From contig JAJFTS010000062.1 of NCBI GenBank assembly GCA_021372815.1, positions 1-44,449 on the forward strand: a stretch of 44,449 nucleotides of DNA, read 5' to 3'. The position numbers were made by a program, and so were the translations under genes. The notes under the pieces were generated by a model. The model was not told where the DNA came from, made no database searches, and saw only the letters and a list, made by a program, of their open reading frames with translations. This DNA is from Deltaproteobacteria bacterium (lineage in GTDB: Bacteria > Desulfobacterota > Syntrophia > Syntrophales > Smithellaceae). Positions 23,193 through 32,409 of this stretch are shown in pieces. Each line of letters begins with the position of its first letter. Within the stretch, counting starts at the first letter, position 1.

Positions 23193-25922
23193 CTACCAAC
23201 TAAGTAAATAATATGCAGTAGCATTTTTCGCTGCGGTCATTTTTACAGTGCAGGTGCCCGTGCCGGTGCATGCTCCTGCCCATTTATAAAATTTGTATCC
23301 GCTATTTGCCGAAGCTGTCAATGTCACTGATTTTCCTGAACCGTAGTTGGCGGAACAGGTCGAACCGCAATTAATGCCACCGTCATTTGCAGTAATAGTC
23401 CCCGCTTTTGAAATGGATTTTCTAACGGTCAACTTGTATAAAACAGATGTGGTGAAAGTTGCTGTAACGGTTTTCGCTGAAGTCATAGATACGGTGCAGG
23501 TACCCGTGCCCGTGCATGCTCCCGACCAACCGGAAAAGATAGAACCGCTCCCCGCCACAGCCGTCAGAGTCACTGATTTACCGGATTCATAATTCACCGA
23601 ACAAGTCGAACCGCAGTTAATAAGTCCGTCGCTGCCTGTAACAGTTCCTGTTCCCGTACCGGATTTTGTAACGGTTAAATTATATACTGTTGTGGCAAAA
23701 TATGCGGTAACGGATGCTGCTGCATTCATAGTCACGGTGCAGGTGCCCGTGCCGGAACATCCGCCACCGGACCAACCGGTGAAAGTATATCCACTATTGG
23801 GAGAAACTGTTAATGTTACGGATGTTGACGGATAATAAGTCGCTGCACAGGTCGAACCGCAATTGATTTTACCATCACTACTTGTTACAGCCCCTGCCGC
23901 CGCGACAGATTTTGCAACAGTTAAAGTATATACGGGGATAAAAGTCGTCGTAACGGATTTCGCTGCCGTCATAGATACGGTACAGGTACCCGTGCCCGTG
24001 CATGCTCCCGACCAACCGGAAAAGATAGAACCGCTCCCCGTCACAGCCGTCAGAGTCACTGATTTACCGGATTCATAATTCACCGAACAAGTCGAACCGC
24101 AGTTAATAAGTCCGTCGCTGCCTGTAACAGTTCCTGTTCCCGTACCGGATTTTGCAACGGTTAAATTATACACAGGTATGGTATAGTTTGCTGTAACGAA
24201 TGTCGCTTCGTTCATAGTCACGGTGCAAGTCCCGGTTCCTGAACATCCCCCTCCTAACCAACCTGCAAATGTATATCCGCTGTTGGGCGAAGCGGTTAAC
24301 GTCACGGACGTTCCTGACTCATAATCAGCAGAGCAGGTTGAACCGCAATTGATACCCGATGGATTGCTTGCCACTGTACCATTAACAGATGTTACAACAA
24401 GCGTAGATTTATTTGTCGCTCCGTACTGATACGCTCCGATATCCCACGCTCCGGAACGGGGATTGCCATCTTTATCGGCTGGCCATGAAGCATCCATATC
24501 CGTATAAGCCGACAAATCCTTGCCGGTATTGATCGCCGGAGATTCCACTTGCAAGGTCAAATCACTGGTAGATGTATAAGAAGGGTCCATGTCTTTGTTG
24601 TGTAAATAGTCAGGATGATTTGATGCCCAAGTGCAACCACTAGCACATACGGTTGTGTAAGTGGTTATAGAGCCCCCACCACCATCCAACCATGCAAAAT
24701 GATTTGCGGTATTATGGTAGAAGATATTGTAGTCATTAATAGCATCTGCTTCGTTAGCCCATGTCACATATTCATTAAGAATATGTTTTGCCGCACCTTT
24801 GAAAATATTATTCTCAACCTTAAAATTTGTGTAAGTTGCCATATGGGAAGATGAGCCATACATTCTTATCGGATAAAAATAGCCTGTTGTGCTGATAAAT
24901 GAATTATTCAATATAAAGAAATCATCAACTCCACCCGCAGAATCTGCATTTTCTATTGCAATACCGATGGAACAATGCCCTCCGGTATTAGTCGGACTGT
25001 TGCGAAAAACATTATTATAAATTCTTACATGCTGCGTCTTATTACCGGTTGCGGTACTATTTTCCAAGAAGATTGTCTGATCTTCCAACTCTCCATTGTT
25101 GATAAATTCATTATTATAGATTCTTAAATACTGTATTCCGTTGTTGAGAATATGAATTGTATCGTAGGTCTGTGCAGCATCAGTCAGATCAAAGGAGTTA
25201 TTATAAATATCAACGCCCCGCCCGCCGCCTGTAACAACGTTTACAGTAGGCGCAGTAACTGTATTATGGTGGATTTTAACCGCTCCATAGGTGGACGCAG
25301 TAGCACCGGAAACGTTCATTTCTGCGGTTCCTATATTGTCATGGAAATAATTATAAGCGGTTTCAAATGATGTTTGAAGGGCGGCATCAATGCAATATTT
25401 GCCACTTCCGTTCATTCCCGTAAATTCAACATATTGAATGACATTACCAGAACGTCCGGTATTGTATGCTATTCCGTAATTATTACCAATATCGAGTTTA
25501 ATATTTCTAGTGTGATCAACAGATGTTTTACTACCATCAATAGTTGTATTTGTTGCTGACCCCATCCATATTACAGTGTCACCAGTCGCATCTAATTTAA
25601 ATAAGACCAAACCATTGCAACCGGTGGAATCTGGAGAAGCTGAACACGGTTTGATATAAAGGCGATTTGACGCTGTTGTATGTATTACATCAAGGGATGT
25701 GGTATAAGTTCCGCCCATTAAATAAACCGTGCTCTCCTCGTCATCAACCGTTGACCAAGGAACACCGGATGGAGCGCACGGCGATTCTTTGGAGCATGTT
25801 GAACCGCTACCCGATGGGGAAACATAGTAATTTGCCGCAAAAACTATTTGAGAATATAAGAATATGAGCAGGCAAGTTACAAAAATTACGCCTATTTGAC
25901 TTAATATTTTACTTCCTTTCAC
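23193..25922 (-). CDS. Large secreted beta-helix protein with five Cys-rich C-terminal repeats
   Basis: The product has 909 residues. The start is GTG 25922, with GGAGG seven bases upstream; a TTG 36 bp further up has no such site. A signal peptide ends near VFA-ANYY. Residues ~25-480 form a right-handed beta-helix region with many 'IYNN' rungs, ending in WDIGAYQYG. Residues ~490-905 hold five repeats of about 80 residues of the 'bacterial repeat' (InlB B-repeat-like) kind. Each has INCGSTC, SVTLTA, a GW or KW turn and GTGTCTV, so four cysteines per unit suggest disulfides outside the cytoplasm. No PEP-CTERM tail is present. It is probably exported to the surface or matrix. Expression appears controlled by a sigma-54 promoter and three c-di-GMP-I riboswitches. 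Confidence 0.8.
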   Translation of the reverse strand: MKGSKILSQIGVIFVTCLLIFLYSQIVFAANYYVSPSGSGSTCSKESPCAPSGVPWSTVDDEESTVYLMGGTYTTSLDVIHTTASNRLYIKPCSASPDSTGCNGLVLFKLDATGDTVIWMGSATNTTIDGSKTSVDHTRNIKLDIGNNYGIAYNTGRSGNVIQYVEFTGMNGSGKYCIDAALQTSFETAYNYFHDNIGTAEMNVSGATASTYGAVKIHHNTVTAPTVNVVTGGGRGVDIYNNSFDLTDAAQTYDTIHILNNGIQYLRIYNNEFINNGELEDQTIFLENSTATGNKTQHVRIYNNVFRNSPTNTGGHCSIGIAIENADSAGGVDDFFILNNSFISTTGYFYPIRMYGSSSHMATYTNFKVENNIFKGAAKHILNEYVTWANEADAINDYNIFYHNTANHFAWLDGGGGSITTYTTVCASGCTWASNHPDYLHNKDMDPSYTSTSDLTLQVESPAINTGKDLSAYTDMDASWPADKDGNPRSGAWDIGAYQYGATNKSTLVVTSVNGTVASNPSGINCGSTCSADYESGTSVTLTASPNSGYTFAGWLGGGCSGTGTCTVTMNEATFVTANYTIPVYNLTVAKSGTGTGTVTGSDGLINCGSTCSVNYESGKSVTLTAVTGSGSIFSGWSGACTGTGTCTVSMTAAKSVTTTFIPVYTLTVAKSVAAAGAVTSSDGKINCGSTCAATYYPSTSVTLTVSPNSGYTFTGWSGGGCSGTGTCTVTMNAAASVTAYFATTVYNLTVTKSGTGTGTVTGSDGLINCGSTCSVNYESGKSVTLTAVAGSGSIFSGWSGACTGTGTCTVSMTSAKTVTATFTTSVLYKLTVRKSISKAGTITANDGGINCGSTCSANYGSGKSVTLTASANSGYKFYKWAGACTGTGTCTVKMTAAKNATAYYLLSW
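23470..24153 (-). repeat. Near-identical intragenic direct repeat, period 486 bp
   Basis: Within the C-terminal repeat region, about 200 bp at roughly 23470-23670 recur almost without change at roughly 23950-24153. The phrase starting CCGGATTCATAATTCACCG is at 23581 and again at 24067. The 486-bp spacing equals 162 codons, so recombination between copies would delete or add two repeats in frame. The intervening and flanking repeats are much more diverged at the DNA level. Confidence 0.8.
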
Positions 25923-26024
25923 AATACAACCTCCATTTTTCTTTAACAGCAGCCGCAATAATGCACAAAAACGACACTATCTTACGTCTATCTGTTTCGT
26001 TATTCAGAATTGCTGGAGGGCTCT

Positions 26025-26116
26025 GAAATTGCCCGGCAGTTCTGCCACCATATCTTCTTACGAAGACTTAGGTCGGTAACTTTGCGTCCCACCTTTTCAG
26101 ATGGTTTGCCCTTCTC
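26025..26116 (-). ncRNA. c-di-GMP-I (GEMM-I) riboswitch aptamer, copy A (gene-proximal)
   Basis: Read on the minus strand, the RNA has GGGCAAACC, then a 6-bp stem CCAUCU-GAAA-AGGUGG with a GAAA tetraloop, GGGACGCAAAG and CCGACCUAAG. A UCUUC/GAAGA hairpin follows, then UAUGG and GGCAGAACUGCCGGGC. CCUAAG with UAUGG forms the classic 11-nt tetraloop receptor. The G that contacts c-di-GMP (G20 in the Vc2 numbering) is present, as is the stacking A47 in CGCAAAG. The aptamer is about 100 nt upstream of GTG 25922. No T-run terminator lies between, so control may be at translation. Confidence 0.92.
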
Positions 26117-26186
26117 AAGCTTTGGTGCTGTTAAACACCTTTTAAATTTGTTATTTTGTATTGGCAGGATTGCTGAACGTATCTTT

Positions 26187-26280
26187 TGACTTTGCCCGGC
26201 AGTTCTGCCACCCTATCCTCCTTTGAAGACTTAGGCCAGTAACTTTGCGCCCCACCCTTTCAGATGGTTTGCCTTTTTCA
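26187..26280 (-). ncRNA. c-di-GMP-I (GEMM-I) riboswitch aptamer, copy B (middle)
   Basis: The middle copy has GGCAAACC, P2 stem CCAUCU-GAAA-GGGUGG, GGGGCGCAAAG and CUGGCCUAAG, a short hairpin, and the 3' part GGCAGAACUGCCGGGC. One side of the tetraloop receptor reads UAGGG instead of UAUGG, so this copy may dock less tightly. G20 and A47 equivalents are kept. It lies 163 bp from copy A (GGTTTGCC at 26266 and 26103 on the + strand). The flanking linkers are also similar, so the array arose by tandem duplication of a ~163-bp unit. Confidence 0.9.
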
Positions 26281-26349
26281 AGCTTTGGTATTTTTATACG
26301 CTTATAAAATTTTTTAATTTTGGCAGGATTGCTGGACGGAGAGATGTTA

Positions 26350-26443
26350 TGAAATTGCCCTGCAGTTCTGCCACCATATCCTCTTTTTGAAGACTTAGGT
26401 CAGTAACTTTGCGCCCCACCCTTTCAAATGGTTTGCCTTTTAG
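26350..26443 (-). ncRNA. c-di-GMP-I (GEMM-I) riboswitch aptamer, copy C (promoter-proximal)
   Basis: The first copy to be transcribed has GGCAAACC, CCAUUU-GAAA-GGGUGG, GGGGCGCAAAG, CUGACCUAAG, hairpin, UAUGG and GGCAGAACUGCAGGGC. The tetraloop receptor is intact; the 3' strand reads CUGCAGGGC instead of CUGCCGGGC. G20 and A47 equivalents are present. It lies 164 bp from copy B. Its 5' edge is only about 10-15 nt downstream of the transcription start predicted from the sigma-54 site at 26465-26480. Confidence 0.9.
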
Positions 26444-26464
26444 AATTTACCGGAGAGATAGAAA

Positions 26465-26480
26465 AGCAATGTTTATGCCA
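26465..26480 (-). promoter_or_regulatory. Sigma-54 promoter of the riboswitch-controlled secreted-protein gene
   Basis: On the minus strand the site reads TGGCATAAACATTGCT: GG and GC separated by exactly 10 bases, close to the consensus TGGCAC-N5-TTGCA. The predicted start (~26454) is immediately upstream of riboswitch copy C. It faces away from a similar site driving the PEP-CTERM gene. Confidence 0.75.
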
Positions 26481-26808
26481 CAAAACAATATATTTAATTA
26501 ATATATAATATTAATATCTTACATAAAGTGAAACTATTTGATACCCTCCAACCTTGGTCATTTTCCCTTTATATAGATTAAATTAACCAAAAAAGCAAGC
26601 GCAAGGAATAGCACTTGGGACGAGAGAGCAAGGAAAAGGGTAAGGGAATGAAATCAGTGCCTTTGTCGGAATAATTTACAAATATGAAAAATACATTTTG
26701 ATTGCCAAAAACGGCATAAAGAAAGTGAATATTTCTGATAATTATTATTCAATTAATATCAATCACTTATAATCATTCCTGCCTTCATGGCATTATTATC
26801 ACGCTTTA
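26481..26808. other. Divergent regulatory region between two sigma-54 promoters
   Basis: This AT-rich stretch of about 330 bp has no convincing gene. It separates two divergent sigma-54 sites and is the natural place for activator (PrsR) binding. It contains TGTCGGAATAATTTACAA (26664-26681), which recurs exactly upstream of the exosortase gene. Confidence 0.5.
26664..26681 (+). repeat. 18-bp repeat, copy 1: candidate activator-binding site
   Basis: TGTCGGAATAATTTACAA (TGT-N11-ACA) is found here and again at 27687-27704. This copy lies about 130 bp upstream of the PEP-CTERM sigma-54 site and about 185 bp upstream of the divergent one. Those distances suit an enhancer site for a sigma-54 activator. 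The binding protein is unknown; PrsR is the obvious candidate. Confidence 0.5.
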
Positions 26809-26824
26809 TGGCATGGCAGTTGCT
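26809..26824 (+). promoter_or_regulatory. Sigma-54 promoter of the PEP-CTERM gene
   Basis: TGGCATGGCAGTTGCT has GG-N10-GC spacing and matches TGGCAC-N5-TTGCA except at two tolerated positions. The predicted start is near 26835, giving a leader of about 58 nt before ATG 26893. The activator is presumably PrsR, encoded at 31057-32409. Confidence 0.8.
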
Positions 26825-26892: not shown

Positions 26893-27492
26893 ATGAAAAC
26901 AAAGTTAATTTCATGTTTGTTGGTGTTGCTGATGATGTTTGCATTCAGCACGGGAGCAAAAGCCGATTCATATTTTGGTCAAGTAACAATTACACCTGGT
27001 TATCCGTTTGTTGTAAATATTGTTGATAATGGATCATTTTTATCTTTCTGCTTGGAAATGGATGAAGCTATTGCTGGGGGCAATATATATAACGCATACC
27101 TTAACAATGCAGCAGTAGCGGGCGGTGTAGGTGGAGGAGAACCCGACCCTGTCGATCCTCTAACTGTTTATCTTTATACTAACTTTTTGTCAGGTGCAAG
27201 TTACAATCCACTTGCTCTGCAAGTAGCAATCTGGGATATCGAAGAGGAATCACCGTACGCTTTGGTAACTTACCAAAGCTATAAACCTTTAGCCGATACT
27301 TATATTGCTGATGCCATAACAGCGCTCGCTAATGGATGGCAACCCACAATTGGAGTATATGCTCTCAATCTCTACACACTTGATGGTGCTTTAGCGCAGG
27401 ATTTCTTAAGCGTTCCCGAACCGATGACACTTTTACTGCTCGGACTTGGTCTACTGGGCATTGGCATTACAAGAAAAAGGTTCGCGAAATAA
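26893..27492 (+). CDS. PEP-CTERM protein with possible Cys-Gln thioester motif
   Basis: This 199-residue secreted protein has a signal peptide (cleavage near AKA-DS, residue 24). Its C-terminal sorting signal is V-P-E-P (174-177), a hydrophobic helix of about 15 residues and a basic tail RKRFAK. The exosortase encoded 430 bp downstream should cleave at the PEP signal. The mature part of about 150 residues has SFCLEMDE (Cys53) and ALQVAIW (Gln110). These resemble the Cys and T/L-Q-x-A-I-W positions of Cys-Gln thioester domains; whether a thioester forms is inference. An AGAGGGAAG ribosome site supports ATG 26893. It is controlled by a sigma-54 promoter and ends at an intrinsic terminator. Confidence 0.9.
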   Translation: MKTKLISCLLVLLMMFAFSTGAKADSYFGQVTITPGYPFVVNIVDNGSFLSFCLEMDEAIAGGNIYNAYLNNAAVAGGVGGGEPDPVDPLTVYLYTNFLSGASYNPLALQVAIWDIEEESPYALVTYQSYKPLADTYIADAITALANGWQPTIGVYALNLYTLDGALAQDFLSVPEPMTLLLLGLGLLGIGITRKRFAK

Positions 27493-27548: not shown

Positions 27549-27935
27549 GTTTTGTTTTATTTGATAAAATTACCGGTGTCGAAATACTTCACATTCTCAT
27601 TTCAGCCGCAAATTAAGTTTAAATTGCCGTCATTATTAGTAAAATACTGAAAATGAGCGTTTGAACATAATTATTCCGCCTTTTTATGTCGGAATAATTT
27701 ACAATTTTGACAATGGAGAGTAACAAGGGGTGGGGAGGAAGGAAAAAGGGACAACATTAAGAAACCGTGAATAGCCTATGGTGAATAGAAGGAACTTTTC
27801 AATATTCAAAGTTCAATATTTAAAAACACCGGCAAATGGTCAATAGCAAAAGGGGAAAGGAACCATTCAAAAAAATGTTCGCATTTTTCTATCTAATATA
27901 TTAATATAATTGTTAAATAATGAATGAAGGTGAAT
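27549..27935 (+). promoter_or_regulatory. Upstream region of the exosortase gene with inverted and direct repeats
   Basis: This stretch of about 390 bp holds the second exact copy of TGTCGGAATAATTTACAA (27687-27704). That copy lies in an inverted repeat AATTATTCCG (27669-27678) / CGGAATAATT (27690-27699). A purine-rich tract follows. No GG-N10-GC site was found on the + strand. Near the gene, TATATTAATATAAT offers -10-like sequences, so the exosortase promoter is probably not sigma-54 dependent. Confidence 0.45.
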
Positions 27936-28829
27936 ATGAGAGAAGATTCTCTGGTTGTAAAAATCAAGGAATATCTCAGCGCCAGAAACATTGTTTTTAT
28001 TCTAGCCATCGCAGTGGCATTGCTCATGGCTTATTTGCCGATCAAAGTTCTTTATTCATCAAATAAAAGTGAATACTATTCGCATATAGTGTTAATACCT
28101 TTCGTAAGCATTTATCTTATTTACATTAAACACAAAGAAATCTTTGCACAAATAAATTATTCCTTTGTTGCAGGAATTCCCATTTTAATCTTGAGCATTT
28201 TTCTCTTTCTGGGCGGAATCATGTGGGGCACATCGTTCGATAAAAACAACTACGCATCACTTATTTTCTTTTCTATCTTCATTTTTATAAACGGAGCTTT
28301 TATCCTTCTTTACGGTCCGCAGGCTTATCGAAGCGCTTTATTCCCTTTTCTCTTTTTAATTTTCATCGTTCCGATCCCTACGGCACTTATGGACAATATC
28401 ATCTATTTTTTACAGGTCGGCTCGACAGAATTTACAAATCTTTTATTTCTGGCCTCGGGTGTGCCTTTTATGAGAGACGGTTTTGTCTTTCAATTGCCGA
28501 ATGTCAGTGTCGAAATAGCCAAACAATGCAGCGGCATCCGGTCAAGCATGGCTATTTTCATTGTCGCCATTCTGGCCGGTTATATGTTTTTGAAATCTTA
28601 CTGGAAAATAATTTTCCTGGTGATCTGTGCTGTTTTAATTGCCATGTTAAAAAACGGCATCCGGATTTTAACGCTCTCCCTTATGGGAAATTATGTTGAT
28701 CAGCGAATTCTTTCCAGCTCTCTGCATAGAGAAGGCGGCACGCCTTTTTTCATTCTGGCGCTGTTGCTGCTGGCCCCTATATTGTTTTTTTTAAGAAGAT
28801 CCGAAAATCGTAATTCAACAAATTACTGA
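27936..28829 (+). CDS. Exosortase (PEP-CTERM transpeptidase)
   Basis: This inner-membrane protein has 297 residues and about eight hydrophobic spans. It carries the exosortase/archaeosortase catalytic triad: Cys198 in AKQCSGIRSS, Arg243 in KNGIRIL and His264 in SLHREGG. It should cleave the PEP-CTERM signal of the protein at 26893 and others elsewhere. ATG 27936 is preferred over ATG 27924 because AAGG lies five bases upstream. The protein lacks a C-terminal EpsI/DUF3485 extension and no such gene is nearby, so I do not assign a subtype. PrsK and PrsR follow on the same strand. Confidence 0.9.
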   Translation: MREDSLVVKIKEYLSARNIVFILAIAVALLMAYLPIKVLYSSNKSEYYSHIVLIPFVSIYLIYIKHKEIFAQINYSFVAGIPILILSIFLFLGGIMWGTSFDKNNYASLIFFSIFIFINGAFILLYGPQAYRSALFPFLFLIFIVPIPTALMDNIIYFLQVGSTEFTNLLFLASGVPFMRDGFVFQLPNVSVEIAKQCSGIRSSMAIFIVAILAGYMFLKSYWKIIFLVICAVLIAMLKNGIRILTLSLMGNYVDQRILSSSLHREGGTPFFILALLLLAPILFFLRRSENRNSTNY

Positions 28830-28916: not shown

Positions 28917-31034
28917 ATGGCTTTTAATGTCGGGATCTCATTTGCGGCGGCTTGCATTACTTTTGCGGTAATGGCCGCTGGCATTTACCGCGGACCGCGT
29001 TCCTTTACTCAAGGCGTATTCGCCTTCGGAATGCTGCTTTTGTCTCTGGAAGCGATCTGCACAGGTTTTGTATATCAATCAAAAACGCTTTCCGACTTTC
29101 TTTACTGGCAGCGGCAGTTGTTTATCATATCATCAATTGTGCCTGCCGCCTGGCTGCTTTTCAGTATCAGCTTTGCCCGGGCCAACTATTTTGAACAGAT
29201 ATCCAAATGGAAGTGGATTTTAATGCTGGCGGCGGCAGTTCCGCTTTCCCTGATAATTTTCTTTCCTGACGACTTTATTTCCTTAGTTCTGGCTCCGCGG
29301 AATTCGCAAACTTTGTTTATCCGGCTGGAATGGCCCGGTTATCTATGGCACATTGTATCGGTGATTGCATCCATAGCGATTCTTATGAACATGGAAAGAA
29401 CTTTCCGTCATTCCACCGGTCATATTCGCTGGCAAACTAAATTCATGTTTCTGGGCATCGGCGGTATTTTCGGGATAAGGCTTTTTACGGACAGTCAGGT
29501 CGTCCTTTTCAACGGCGTGGATACAGGTCTTTATGTAGTTGATCTGGGCGCTCTGCTGATTGCCGACATTTTTATCGTGCGGTCGTTGTTTCGCGGCAGG
29601 CCGCTTAATGTCAGCATTCAGCTTTCGCATCAGTTTCTCTACACATCTTTTACTATTCTGATTGTCGGCATTTATTTTATATCGTTGGGAATAATTGCCT
29701 GGGTTTTACTGCATTTCGAATGGCTTAAAAATGTCAACCTGATTATCTTTCTGGTTTTTGTGACGATCATTTTTCTGGCTGCCTTCCTGCTCTCCGACCG
29801 GTTACGAACAAAAAGAAAACGTTTCATCAGCCGCCATTTAAAACGCCCGCAATATGATTATCAGAAAATATGGGAAGACTTCACCCAGAGGACCGCCTCC
29901 GTCACAAAAACCGACGAGTTGTGCAGCAACATTGTCAAGATGGTTTCGGATGCCATGGGGATTCTTTCCGTCGGCATTTGGCTTGTTGACGAAAAGCAGG
30001 AGCAATTATTTTTCGGCGGGTCAACAGTCTTTACGGCGGATCAAATAAAAGGAATGAATGTTTTCAAAGAAGGCGGAACGCAAATGATCCGTGCCCTGAC
30101 CAATCAAAGCATGCCGCTTGATCTGAAAGGGCGTGAAGACGACTGGGTTTCCGATCTGGCTCATATTTATAAACTGGAAACCAGGGAATCGCGTATTCGC
30201 TACTGCGTTCCTCTCAATGCCGCAGGACAGCTCATCGGAATAATGACCTTGAGCGAAAAAGTATTTTATGAACCGCTGACCTTCGAAGAATCGGATCTGA
30301 TAAAAACTATCGCGGACCAGGCCGCGGCCGCTCTGCAAAACCTGCGACTGTCCGAACGCCTGCGTCAGACCAGGGAACTGGAGGCATTGCAGACGATGTC
30401 GTCCTTTTTCATGCACGATTTAAAGAATCTGGCATCGAAACTTTCTCTGGTCATGCAAAACCTCCCTCAGCATATGGACAATCCGGAATTCCGCAGCGAC
30501 GTTTTAAAAACCATTGCTCAAAGCGTATCCAAAATCAACAAAATCAGCAGTGGTCTTTCTCTTTTAAGTCAAAAAATCGACCTGAACTTTGTCGAGACAG
30601 AGATAAACGACCTGGTCAGAAAAGTGGTCACGGATGTAAAGGAATATGTAACGATTCCGGTCAATCAGAATCTGGATGAGCAGATACCCCTGATTTTTAT
30701 TGATCAGGAACAAATGCACAAAGTTCTTGAAAATCTTCTTATAAATGCATACGATGCCACAGGGAAAGATGGTAAAATCTCTGTTGCCACAAGTTTTCAA
30801 AATAACCTGGTGGAAATTTCCGTCAGCGATAACGGCTGTGGAATTTCCAAAGAATTTATAGAAAAAAATCTTTTCCGTCCTTTTCAAACAACAAAAAAAC
30901 AGGGGATGGGCATTGGTCTTTATCACTGTAAAACAATTATTGACGCGCATGGCGGTAATCTTAACGTAGAAAGCGAGGAAGGCAAAGGAACCGTATTCAA
31001 AATAATACTGCCGACCGGCAGAAACCTTGTATAA
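28917..31034 (+). CDS. prsK: PEP-CTERM system sensor histidine kinase PrsK
   Basis: This is a 705-residue membrane kinase. Residues 1-~290 contain about eight hydrophobic spans. A GAF-like domain lies at ~330-480. The phosphoacceptor His500 is in FFMHDLKNLAS. The ATPase has an N box (ENLLINAYDA), G1 (DNGCGI), an F box and G2 (GMGIGL). This domain order and the HDLKNLA motif fit the PrsK family found beside exosortase genes. It should phosphorylate PrsR (31057-32409), starting 23 bp downstream. The input signal is unknown. The ATG has no strong ribosome site, but the first hydrophobic span starts right after it. Confidence 0.9.
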   Translation: MAFNVGISFAAACITFAVMAAGIYRGPRSFTQGVFAFGMLLLSLEAICTGFVYQSKTLSDFLYWQRQLFIISSIVPAAWLLFSISFARANYFEQISKWKWILMLAAAVPLSLIIFFPDDFISLVLAPRNSQTLFIRLEWPGYLWHIVSVIASIAILMNMERTFRHSTGHIRWQTKFMFLGIGGIFGIRLFTDSQVVLFNGVDTGLYVVDLGALLIADIFIVRSLFRGRPLNVSIQLSHQFLYTSFTILIVGIYFISLGIIAWVLLHFEWLKNVNLIIFLVFVTIIFLAAFLLSDRLRTKRKRFISRHLKRPQYDYQKIWEDFTQRTASVTKTDELCSNIVKMVSDAMGILSVGIWLVDEKQEQLFFGGSTVFTADQIKGMNVFKEGGTQMIRALTNQSMPLDLKGREDDWVSDLAHIYKLETRESRIRYCVPLNAAGQLIGIMTLSEKVFYEPLTFEESDLIKTIADQAAAALQNLRLSERLRQTRELEALQTMSSFFMHDLKNLASKLSLVMQNLPQHMDNPEFRSDVLKTIAQSVSKINKISSGLSLLSQKIDLNFVETEINDLVRKVVTDVKEYVTIPVNQNLDEQIPLIFIDQEQMHKVLENLLINAYDATGKDGKISVATSFQNNLVEISVSDNGCGISKEFIEKNLFRPFQTTKKQGMGIGLYHCKTIIDAHGGNLNVESEEGKGTVFKIILPTGRNLV

Positions 31035-31056: not shown

Positions 31057-32409
31057 TTGCGTAAGCCAAAACTGTTAATTGTCGATGATGATGAAGATCT
31101 GCGCACGCAGATGAAATGGGCGCTGACAGCGGACTACGAAGTTTATATGGCTGAAGACCGGCCAAGCGCCGTCGCCATTATCAACAAAGAGCAGCCGCCC
31201 GTCGTCACGCTGGATTTGGGACTGCCGCCGAATCCTACCGGCGTTGAAGAAGGATTTGCTGCTTTAGAATACATTCTTGATGAACAAAGTCACACAAAAG
31301 TGATTATCATAACCGGACGAGGCGAGAAAGAACATGCTCTGCGCGCCGTTGAAAAAGGCGCCTACGACTTCTTTTACAAACCGATTGAACTGGACGAGCT
31401 GAAAATCGTGCTCAAGCGGACATTTCACGTGGCTCAACTGGAGAAGGAGCAACGTGAGCTGCGCCAACGTCTAAGCGGCGATACTTTTGAAGGCATGAGC
31501 GGAATTTCCCCCAAAATGCAACAGGTCTTTTCCGCCATCCGCAAAGTAGCCACAACCGATGCGCCCGTTCTAATCAGAGGCGAAAGCGGCACCGGCAAAG
31601 AACTGGTTGCCCGGGCTATTTACCGGTTGAGTATCAGGGAATCCAAACCCTTCATTCCCATCAATTGCAGCGCCATTCCCGAGAATCTCATCGAAAGTGA
31701 ACTTTTCGGCCATGAGAAAGGAACATTCACCGGCGCGCATATGCAGCGCAAAGGAAGATTTGAAATGGCCGAAGGGGGAACTCTTTTCCTTGATGAAATC
31801 GGTGATCTTCCCCTGACACTCCAGGTAAAGCTTCTTCGTTTTCTACAGGAAAAAAAGATAGAACGTGTCGGCGGCCGGGAACAAATTGAAGTGGACGCCC
31901 GGGTTCTGGCGGCAACCAATCGTGATCTGGAAGAAGCAATGAAAAATGCGACCTTCCGGGACGATTTATATTATCGACTCAGCGTCATCAACATTTCTCT
32001 TCCCGCATTGCGGGAAAGAAACGGCGATGTCATTCTCCTGGCTAAAATATTTCTTGATCGCTACTCAAGTGAAAATAGAAAGAAAATTAAAGGATTCAGC
32101 AATCTGGCATTGGAAGCCATTGAGCACTACTCCTGGCCCGGAAATGTTCGCGAACTGGAAAACCGGATCAAACGGGCGGTGATTATGTCCGAGGGTAAAA
32201 AAATTACGGTGGAAGACCTGGAAATGGAGTCAACCGAAGGCAGAAAAGAGTGCATGGTGCTCAAGGACGCCAGAGAAAATCTGGAAAAAGAGCTCATTTT
32301 AAAAGCCATAGCCCGGAATGAAAAAAATTTGACCAAAGCGGCGTCGGAGCTGGGAGTCAGCCGTCCCACTTTATATGACTTAATGGAAAAATTGGGGATT
32401 CCAAAGTAA
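31057..32409 (+). CDS. prsR: PEP-CTERM system response regulator PrsR (sigma-54 activator)
   Basis: This 450-residue protein has a receiver domain (1-~125, phosphoacceptor Asp53, Lys108 in YKPIE), an AAA+ sigma-54 activation domain and a Fis-type helix-turn-helix (~405-450, TKAASELGVSRPTLYDLMEK). The AAA+ part shows Walker A GESGTGKE (175-182), the sigma-54 contact loop GTFTGA (222-227, Thr where GAFTGA is usual), and Walker B LFLDEIGD. The start is TTG 31057 with an ACGAGG site upstream; the frame begins just before the receiver. It is the natural activator of the sigma-54 sites at 26465-26480, 26809-26824 and perhaps 33530-33545. Confidence 0.92.
   Translation: MRKPKLLIVDDDEDLRTQMKWALTADYEVYMAEDRPSAVAIINKEQPPVVTLDLGLPPNPTGVEEGFAALEYILDEQSHTKVIIITGRGEKEHALRAVEKGAYDFFYKPIELDELKIVLKRTFHVAQLEKEQRELRQRLSGDTFEGMSGISPKMQQVFSAIRKVATTDAPVLIRGESGTGKELVARAIYRLSIRESKPFIPINCSAIPENLIESELFGHEKGTFTGAHMQRKGRFEMAEGGTLFLDEIGDLPLTLQVKLLRFLQEKKIERVGGREQIEVDARVLAATNRDLEEAMKNATFRDDLYYRLSVINISLPALRERNGDVILLAKIFLDRYSSENRKKIKGFSNLALEAIEHYSWPGNVRELENRIKRAVIMSEGKKITVEDLEMESTEGRKECMVLKDARENLEKELILKAIARNEKNLTKAASELGVSRPTLYDLMEKLGIPK

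Follow-up and report, generated by a model that had tools for sequence, protein, structure and literature searches.

Tandem c-di-GMP-I riboswitches were catalogued in 2022 as 347 doublets and 12 triplets and, in the passages of that catalogue considered here, were predicted to steepen the response (PMC9481103). In the Bacillus thuringiensis triplet Bc3-5, each of the three c-di-GMP-I units is predicted to bear a terminator and to act as an independent ON switch (PMC4759541). Triple c-di-GMP-I arrays are already known, and one triplet has been studied. The locus analyzed here lies in a stretch of 44,449 nucleotides from a Smithellaceae bacterium (hereafter, the window, meaning the whole stretch). 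It resembles Bc3-5 in that three c-di-GMP-I aptamers share a single 5' UTR, and differs from it in that the internal units lack a terminator, the last unit carries an anti-Shine-Dalgarno (anti-SD) sequence and the promoter is of the sigma-54 type. As far as the compared passages of the catalogue go, the array falls into the same arrangement class as the catalogued tandems, whereas sigma-54 promoters and sensor-only internal units are not discussed there. With the PEP-CTERM/exosortase regulon (Haft 2006, PMC1569441) the locus shares PrsK/PrsR neighbors, a sigma-54 box before a gene for an extracellular protein, and an exopolysaccharide locus, but the protein lacks PEP-CTERM, the leader contains riboswitches, and AAAATRACC is found instead of TTTACA. 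A pairing of a riboswitch with sigma-54/RpoN or with PEP-CTERM was not found in the searched open-access library, which covers few subscription papers.

Activator-gated sigma-54 transcription and RNA-based sensing of c-di-GMP would converge on a single extracellular protein, encoded beside an exosortase/exopolysaccharide locus. What extra aptamers contribute when they have no expression platform of their own cannot be learned from the known triplet, in which the units bear terminators; the present array would provide a natural test.

The leader and its downstream gene

Comparison of the window with Rfam 15 (cmscan) yielded exactly three matches, all to RF01051, on the minus strand and over the full length of the model (1-87), with scores of 72.9-76.8 bits (E <= 1.5e-12) against a gathering score of 35, and with starts 164 and 163 nt apart (Table 1). 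All three copies contain G at the position equivalent to G20 of Vc2, the c-di-GMP-type base; on the strength of the covariance model and this base, they are predicted to be c-di-GMP-I riboswitch aptamers. The preliminary description, which placed three GEMM-I aptamers 163-164 bp apart between a GG-N10-GC sigma-54 promoter and a gene for a secreted beta-helix/repeat protein, with PrsK/PrsR nearby, and suggested an Infernal check with RF01051 on the minus strand, is borne out in all these respects. The deviations of individual copies, from which it considered graded affinities possible, were rejected as evidence for such grading: the UAGGG of copy 2 is a common variation that is also frequent in intact single-copy GEMM-I, and CUGCAGGGC in copy 1 is matched by a 5'-side change from GCUUGA to AUUCUA (U6-A84, C5-G85), so that P1 is re-paired, though weaker. 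The neighbor of this change, C83, is unaltered and would be a pocket base; we take model position 83, from pairing logic, to be Vc2 C92.

The promoter TGGCATAAACATTGCT, which fits the strict pattern TGGCAYN5TTGCW, is 17 bases upstream of the first aptamer model and 27 bases upstream of the GGCAAACC core of aptamer 1. The window contains two strict boxes, compared to 0.1 expected from shuffled sequences, both in one divergent intergenic region, and the genome contains 17, compared to 2 in the reversed control; RpoN is encoded as well (PF04552, E 4e-64). Given the box, RpoN and the conserved placement described below, the leader is predicted to be a sigma-54-dependent transcription unit. Other strict boxes of this genome precede, for example, ammonium-transporter-like and pilin-like genes (named by eye). 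The regulated protein begins with a signal-peptide-like sequence and is of the beta-helix/InlB-B-repeat type.

Table 1. Features of the leader and the adjacent genes in the window.
Feature	Position	Strand	Remarks
Regulated gene, secreted choice-of-anchor Q protein	23193..25922	-	choice-of-anchor Q domain, five InlB-B (Flg_new_2) repeats; GTG start at 25922
Shine-Dalgarno AUGGAGG	25930..25936	-	
Anti-SD CCCUCCA in last-type linker	26014..26020	-	four of four arrays; pairs with SD in folds
c-di-GMP-I aptamer copy 3, last-type unit	26032..26120	-	RF01051 76.8 bits; clusters with last copies elsewhere
Linker element GTTCAGCAATCCTGCC, candidate antiaptamer of copy 2	26163..26178	-	duplex -15.6 kcal/mol, z -3.9
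c-di-GMP-I aptamer copy 2	26195..26283	-	RF01051 75.7 bits
Linker element GTCCAGCAATCCTGCC, candidate antiaptamer, complementary to aptamer 1 3' strand	26322..26337	-	duplex -18.0 kcal/mol, z -3.1; in MFE fold
c-di-GMP-I aptamer copy 1, P1 altered but re-paired	26358..26447	-	RF01051 72.9 bits
Predicted sigma-54 promoter TGGCATAAACATTGCT, GG-N10-GC, -24/-12 element	26465..26480	-	strict box; position conserved
Putative upstream activating element, proximal, GGGAAAATGACC	26556..26567	-	AAAATGACC begins 84 bp above -24 box
Putative upstream activating element, distal, TTGGTTAATTTAATC	26576..26590	-	aligned position in the clade's sigma-54/GEMM promoters
Predicted divergent sigma-54 promoter of PEP-CTERM gene	26809..26824	+	
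PEP-CTERM protein gene	26893..27492	+	
Exosortase gene	27924..28829	+	PF09721 1.4e-45
PrsK histidine kinase	28917..31034	+	TIGR02916 over cutoff
PrsR sigma-54 response regulator, candidate activator	31057..32409	+	TIGR02915 over cutoff

Conserved layout and candidate activator

A scan of 155 genomes of the order for a sigma-54 box followed by a GEMM core identified five true GEMM sites, namely the window, another contig of the same genome (C202) and the relatives G014, G061 and G064, with none in the reversed control. Two further matches, in G041 and G081, were judged to be due to chance, the former from the matched string and the latter upon reading the site, which is not GEMM. A sixth sigma-54/GEMM promoter of the clade, the second in G061, ends in TTGCG and hence falls just outside the search pattern. 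In the four arrays (window, G014, G061 and G064), the box precedes the first GGCAAACC core by 24-28 nt; there are two aptamers in G014 (166 nt apart), three in G061 (163 and 164 nt apart) and two in G064, of which the first is rearranged. The arrays of the three relatives precede a similar secreted-protein gene, with N-termini alike. The predicted promoter, upstream element, three intact aptamers and gene can be read directly from the sequence, and the layout is conserved in the relatives. Given that a sigma-54 promoter combined with c-di-GMP sensors is a layout kept in these genomes, expression of the gene apparently requires that two separate inputs permit it. Multi-input regulation is the most likely purpose.

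The first aptamer of G064 (L071 2591-2707, contig C179) looks as if copies 1 and 2 had fused, a segment of P2 being duplicated so that an extra, partial P2 is present, and would be a snapshot of copy-number collapse. The second leader of the window's genome (L040, C202) has the same upstream element, and its contig ends in the start of an ORF that resembles, by eye, the HD-GYP-associated proteins of the window. In a second leader of G061 (L070 7241-9330, contig C38), a sigma-54 box and a single GEMM-I lead to a GAF-HD-GYP gene, with an apparent decayed fragment of a repeat gene in between; a feedback on c-di-GMP is possible in this case.

The motif AAAATRACC is present 82-84 bp above the -24 box in all six sigma-54/GEMM promoters of the clade, several of which contain a GGTCAnnnTGACC-like partner farther upstream; the G061 counterpart of the distal element TTGGTTAATTTAATC is the palindrome GGTCAATTTGACC. 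Among 51 genomes of the family, the combination of this element with a sigma-54 box was detected seven times, six of these at GEMM loci, compared to none in the reversed control. The distal and proximal elements would be expected to bind a protein. The second input had been ascribed, with a probably, to PrsK/PrsR, and this part of the preliminary description is only partially upheld. In its favor, PrsK and PrsR of the window score above the cutoffs (419 bits against 300 for TIGR02916 and 644 against 503 for TIGR02915), and PrsR is above the cutoff in all four tandem-array genomes but in only 12 of the 51 family genomes (one via joined pieces; p about 0.002 by our own arithmetic, which assumes independence of genomes that are in fact related). 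Moreover, both genes adjoin the array in the window and in G061, where the exosortase gene is found as well. Against it, AAAATRACC differs from the TTTACA motif published for the PrsR regulon and was not seen at the divergent PEP-CTERM promoter of the window, which thus lends no support to AAAATRACC as a PrsR site. The PrsR regulon is characterized by a 17-nt motif 1 that ends in TTTACA and lies 32-92 nt upstream of the sigma-54 box; by eye, TTTACA/TGTAAA was seen at such a distance in the arrays of G061 and G064, but not in those of the window and G014. PrsR is a plausible but unproven activator; given its presence in all array genomes and a conserved element that is not the PrsR motif, the activator would be either PrsR or another Fis-type regulator.

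Units, linkers and expression platform

Comparison of the copies over about 164 nt per unit points to two types. The last copy of the window shares 80% identity with the last copy of G014, compared to 64-69% with the two other copies of its own array; in both G061 and G064, the last copy shares 83% identity with that of G014. Altogether, the last copies of different species and genera share 80-91% identity (75% for the window against G061/G064), whereas copies within one array share 64-71% (window and G014; 66% for the last against the internal copies of G061). The last-type linker, UUCAGAGCCCUCCA..UCUGAA, is found in all four arrays; the internal linkers are of the type GUCCAGCA-AUC-CUGCC or near variants. 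Judging from these comparisons, the last unit is an older, distinct type with its own platform and a lineage separate from that of its array-mates, and the internal type has multiplied while the last type has not. Accordingly, the duplication of the whole unit that had been proposed for all three copies is retained for the internal type and abandoned for the last copy, which is closer to the last copies of other genera.

The internal linkers are complementary to the 3' strands of the preceding aptamers not only in the window but also in G014 (z -5.1) and G061 (z -5.8 to -6.3, both against shuffled sequences), and the MFE fold of the window shows the choice between aptamer and antiaptamer; this complementarity is conserved but with little covariation, and A.C mismatches persist. 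These observations bear on the unlikely alternative that the last unit alone works and the upstream copies are functionless, decaying duplicates. Such decay would be compatible with a copy number of either two or three, with the rearranged fusion that constitutes copy 1 of G064 and with the loss of the canonical P1 strand in copy 1 of the window; however, all window copies score 73-77 bits, the P1 change is compensated, strong complementarity of the internal linkers is kept in two genera and G014 retains an internal copy.

In the last linker, CCCUCCA faces UGGAGG or, in G061 and G064, UGGAG. In fold predictions with P1 forced, each of the four arrays shows SD-anti-SD pairing with a per-base value of about 0.85-1.0, whereas the free state frees the SD partly, and in G061 and G064 only. 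For the window, which contains a roughly 50-nt insertion between anti-SD and SD, and for G014, the SD is predicted to be buried in either state, so that folding shows no switching there. Given that forced P1 makes SD pairing nearly complete and that the free state opens the SD partly in those two genomes, we lean weakly towards an OFF response. Regulation by an anti-SD was also considered for the single-copy prepilin-peptidase loci of the clade and rejected there, as the predicted SD change was inconsistent (a decrease in 12 of 18; mean 0.48 to 0.43); these leaders do not share the pattern seen in the arrays.

No intrinsic terminator, and in particular no terminator after each aptamer as in Bc3-5, was found in the leader (25850-26600). 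A weak hairpin, AACGA..UCGUUUUU, which was noticed by eye within the window-only insertion, was discarded as a terminator. Neither an SD nor a start codon was seen by eye in the internal linkers. With neither a terminator nor an SD nor a start codon, the upstream units look sensor-only, and a role as sensors is suggested by what these units lack. The array could alternatively consist of three independent riboswitches in series, with hidden attenuators (Rho-dependent or weak intrinsic) that multiply read-through as in Bc3-5. The aptamer class and the copy number match those of Bc3-5, a more digital triplet (PMC4759541), and the spacing is even, with a linker behind each copy. Nevertheless, we regard serial attenuation as rather unlikely because the leader has no terminator-like site and the internal linkers end A-rich, without a U-run.

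A further alternative, that the array senses two cyclic dinucleotides, with a different ligand preference of the first unit, derives from the first copies of G061 (L070 10005-10091) and G064 (L071 2591-2707), the only ones with A rather than G at the selectivity position. By the rule given in the part of the catalogue considered here (PMC9481103), A marks cGAMP preference, which is suggested for these two copies only. All three window copies contain G, so that this reading does not apply to the window; for the arrays in general, we consider it very unlikely.

The interpretation that we favor, with moderate confidence, is a sigma-54-dependent leader in which three c-di-GMP-I aptamers add control by c-di-GMP to a transcript licensed by an enhancer-binding protein. 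From a site about 83 bp upstream, PrsR or a different Fis-type regulator would open the promoter as the activator, and each aptamer would then fold during transcription. In the ligand-free state, an internal aptamer could pair its 3' strand with the linker (GGCAG-AAC-UGC-C-GGGC with GUCC-A-GCA-AUC-CUGCC), whereas in the ligand-bound state P1 would retain this strand. Only the last unit would have an output of its own, with the anti-SD CCUCCA opposite the SD UGGAGG. Folding tends, but only weakly, towards a response in which the ligand closes P1 and releases the anti-SD, so that translation falls. The upstream units would contribute additional sensing by which this last switch is sharpened or biased, and the array would not work as three independent switches.

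Sigma-54/GEMM-I leaders elsewhere

A scan of 84,980 species genomes for sigma-54 boxes located 15-45 nt upstream of a GEMM-I core detected 69 stretches from diverse phyla. The positions left free by the search pattern agree with the bases preferred by sigma-54 (A in 47 of 66, p 4e-15; A/T after GC in 57 of 66, p 1e-9), so that most of these boxes are likely to be real promoters. About 66 such leaders (L088-L156) come from many phyla, including Desulfobacterota, Rokubacteria/Methylomirabilota, Brocadia, Acidobacteriota and Gemmatimonadota, and often precede extracellular repeat proteins: fn3, PKD, Big, cadherin-like and InlB-B repeats abound in the downstream ORFs, which were picked mechanically, with Flg_new_2 in 6 of 49. 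The only tandem among these loci outside the clade, two c-di-GMP-I-GGC aptamers, is on an Armatimonadetes contig. We tentatively propose, while regarding it as somewhat doubtful, that a sigma-54 promoter followed by c-di-GMP-I is a general and apparently undescribed two-input design for adhesin-like proteins, and that the sensor-only arrays of the clade, sometimes with a second ligand, tune a single translational switch. The cross-phylum set makes the broader pairing testable.

GEMM-I leaders of other kinds were also encountered. The window's genome (L041 and L042, contigs C129 and C118) and many relatives contain single GEMM-I leaders with TTGAC-type promoters and a GTCGTCCAGCAATCCTGC linker, which precede prepilin-peptidase or pilin-like genes. 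In G009 (L036 3219-3532, contig C84), four c-di-GMP-I or c-di-GMP-I-GGC aptamers are arranged back to back, about 78 nt apart and with nearly no linker, and are followed by a secreted-protein-like gene.
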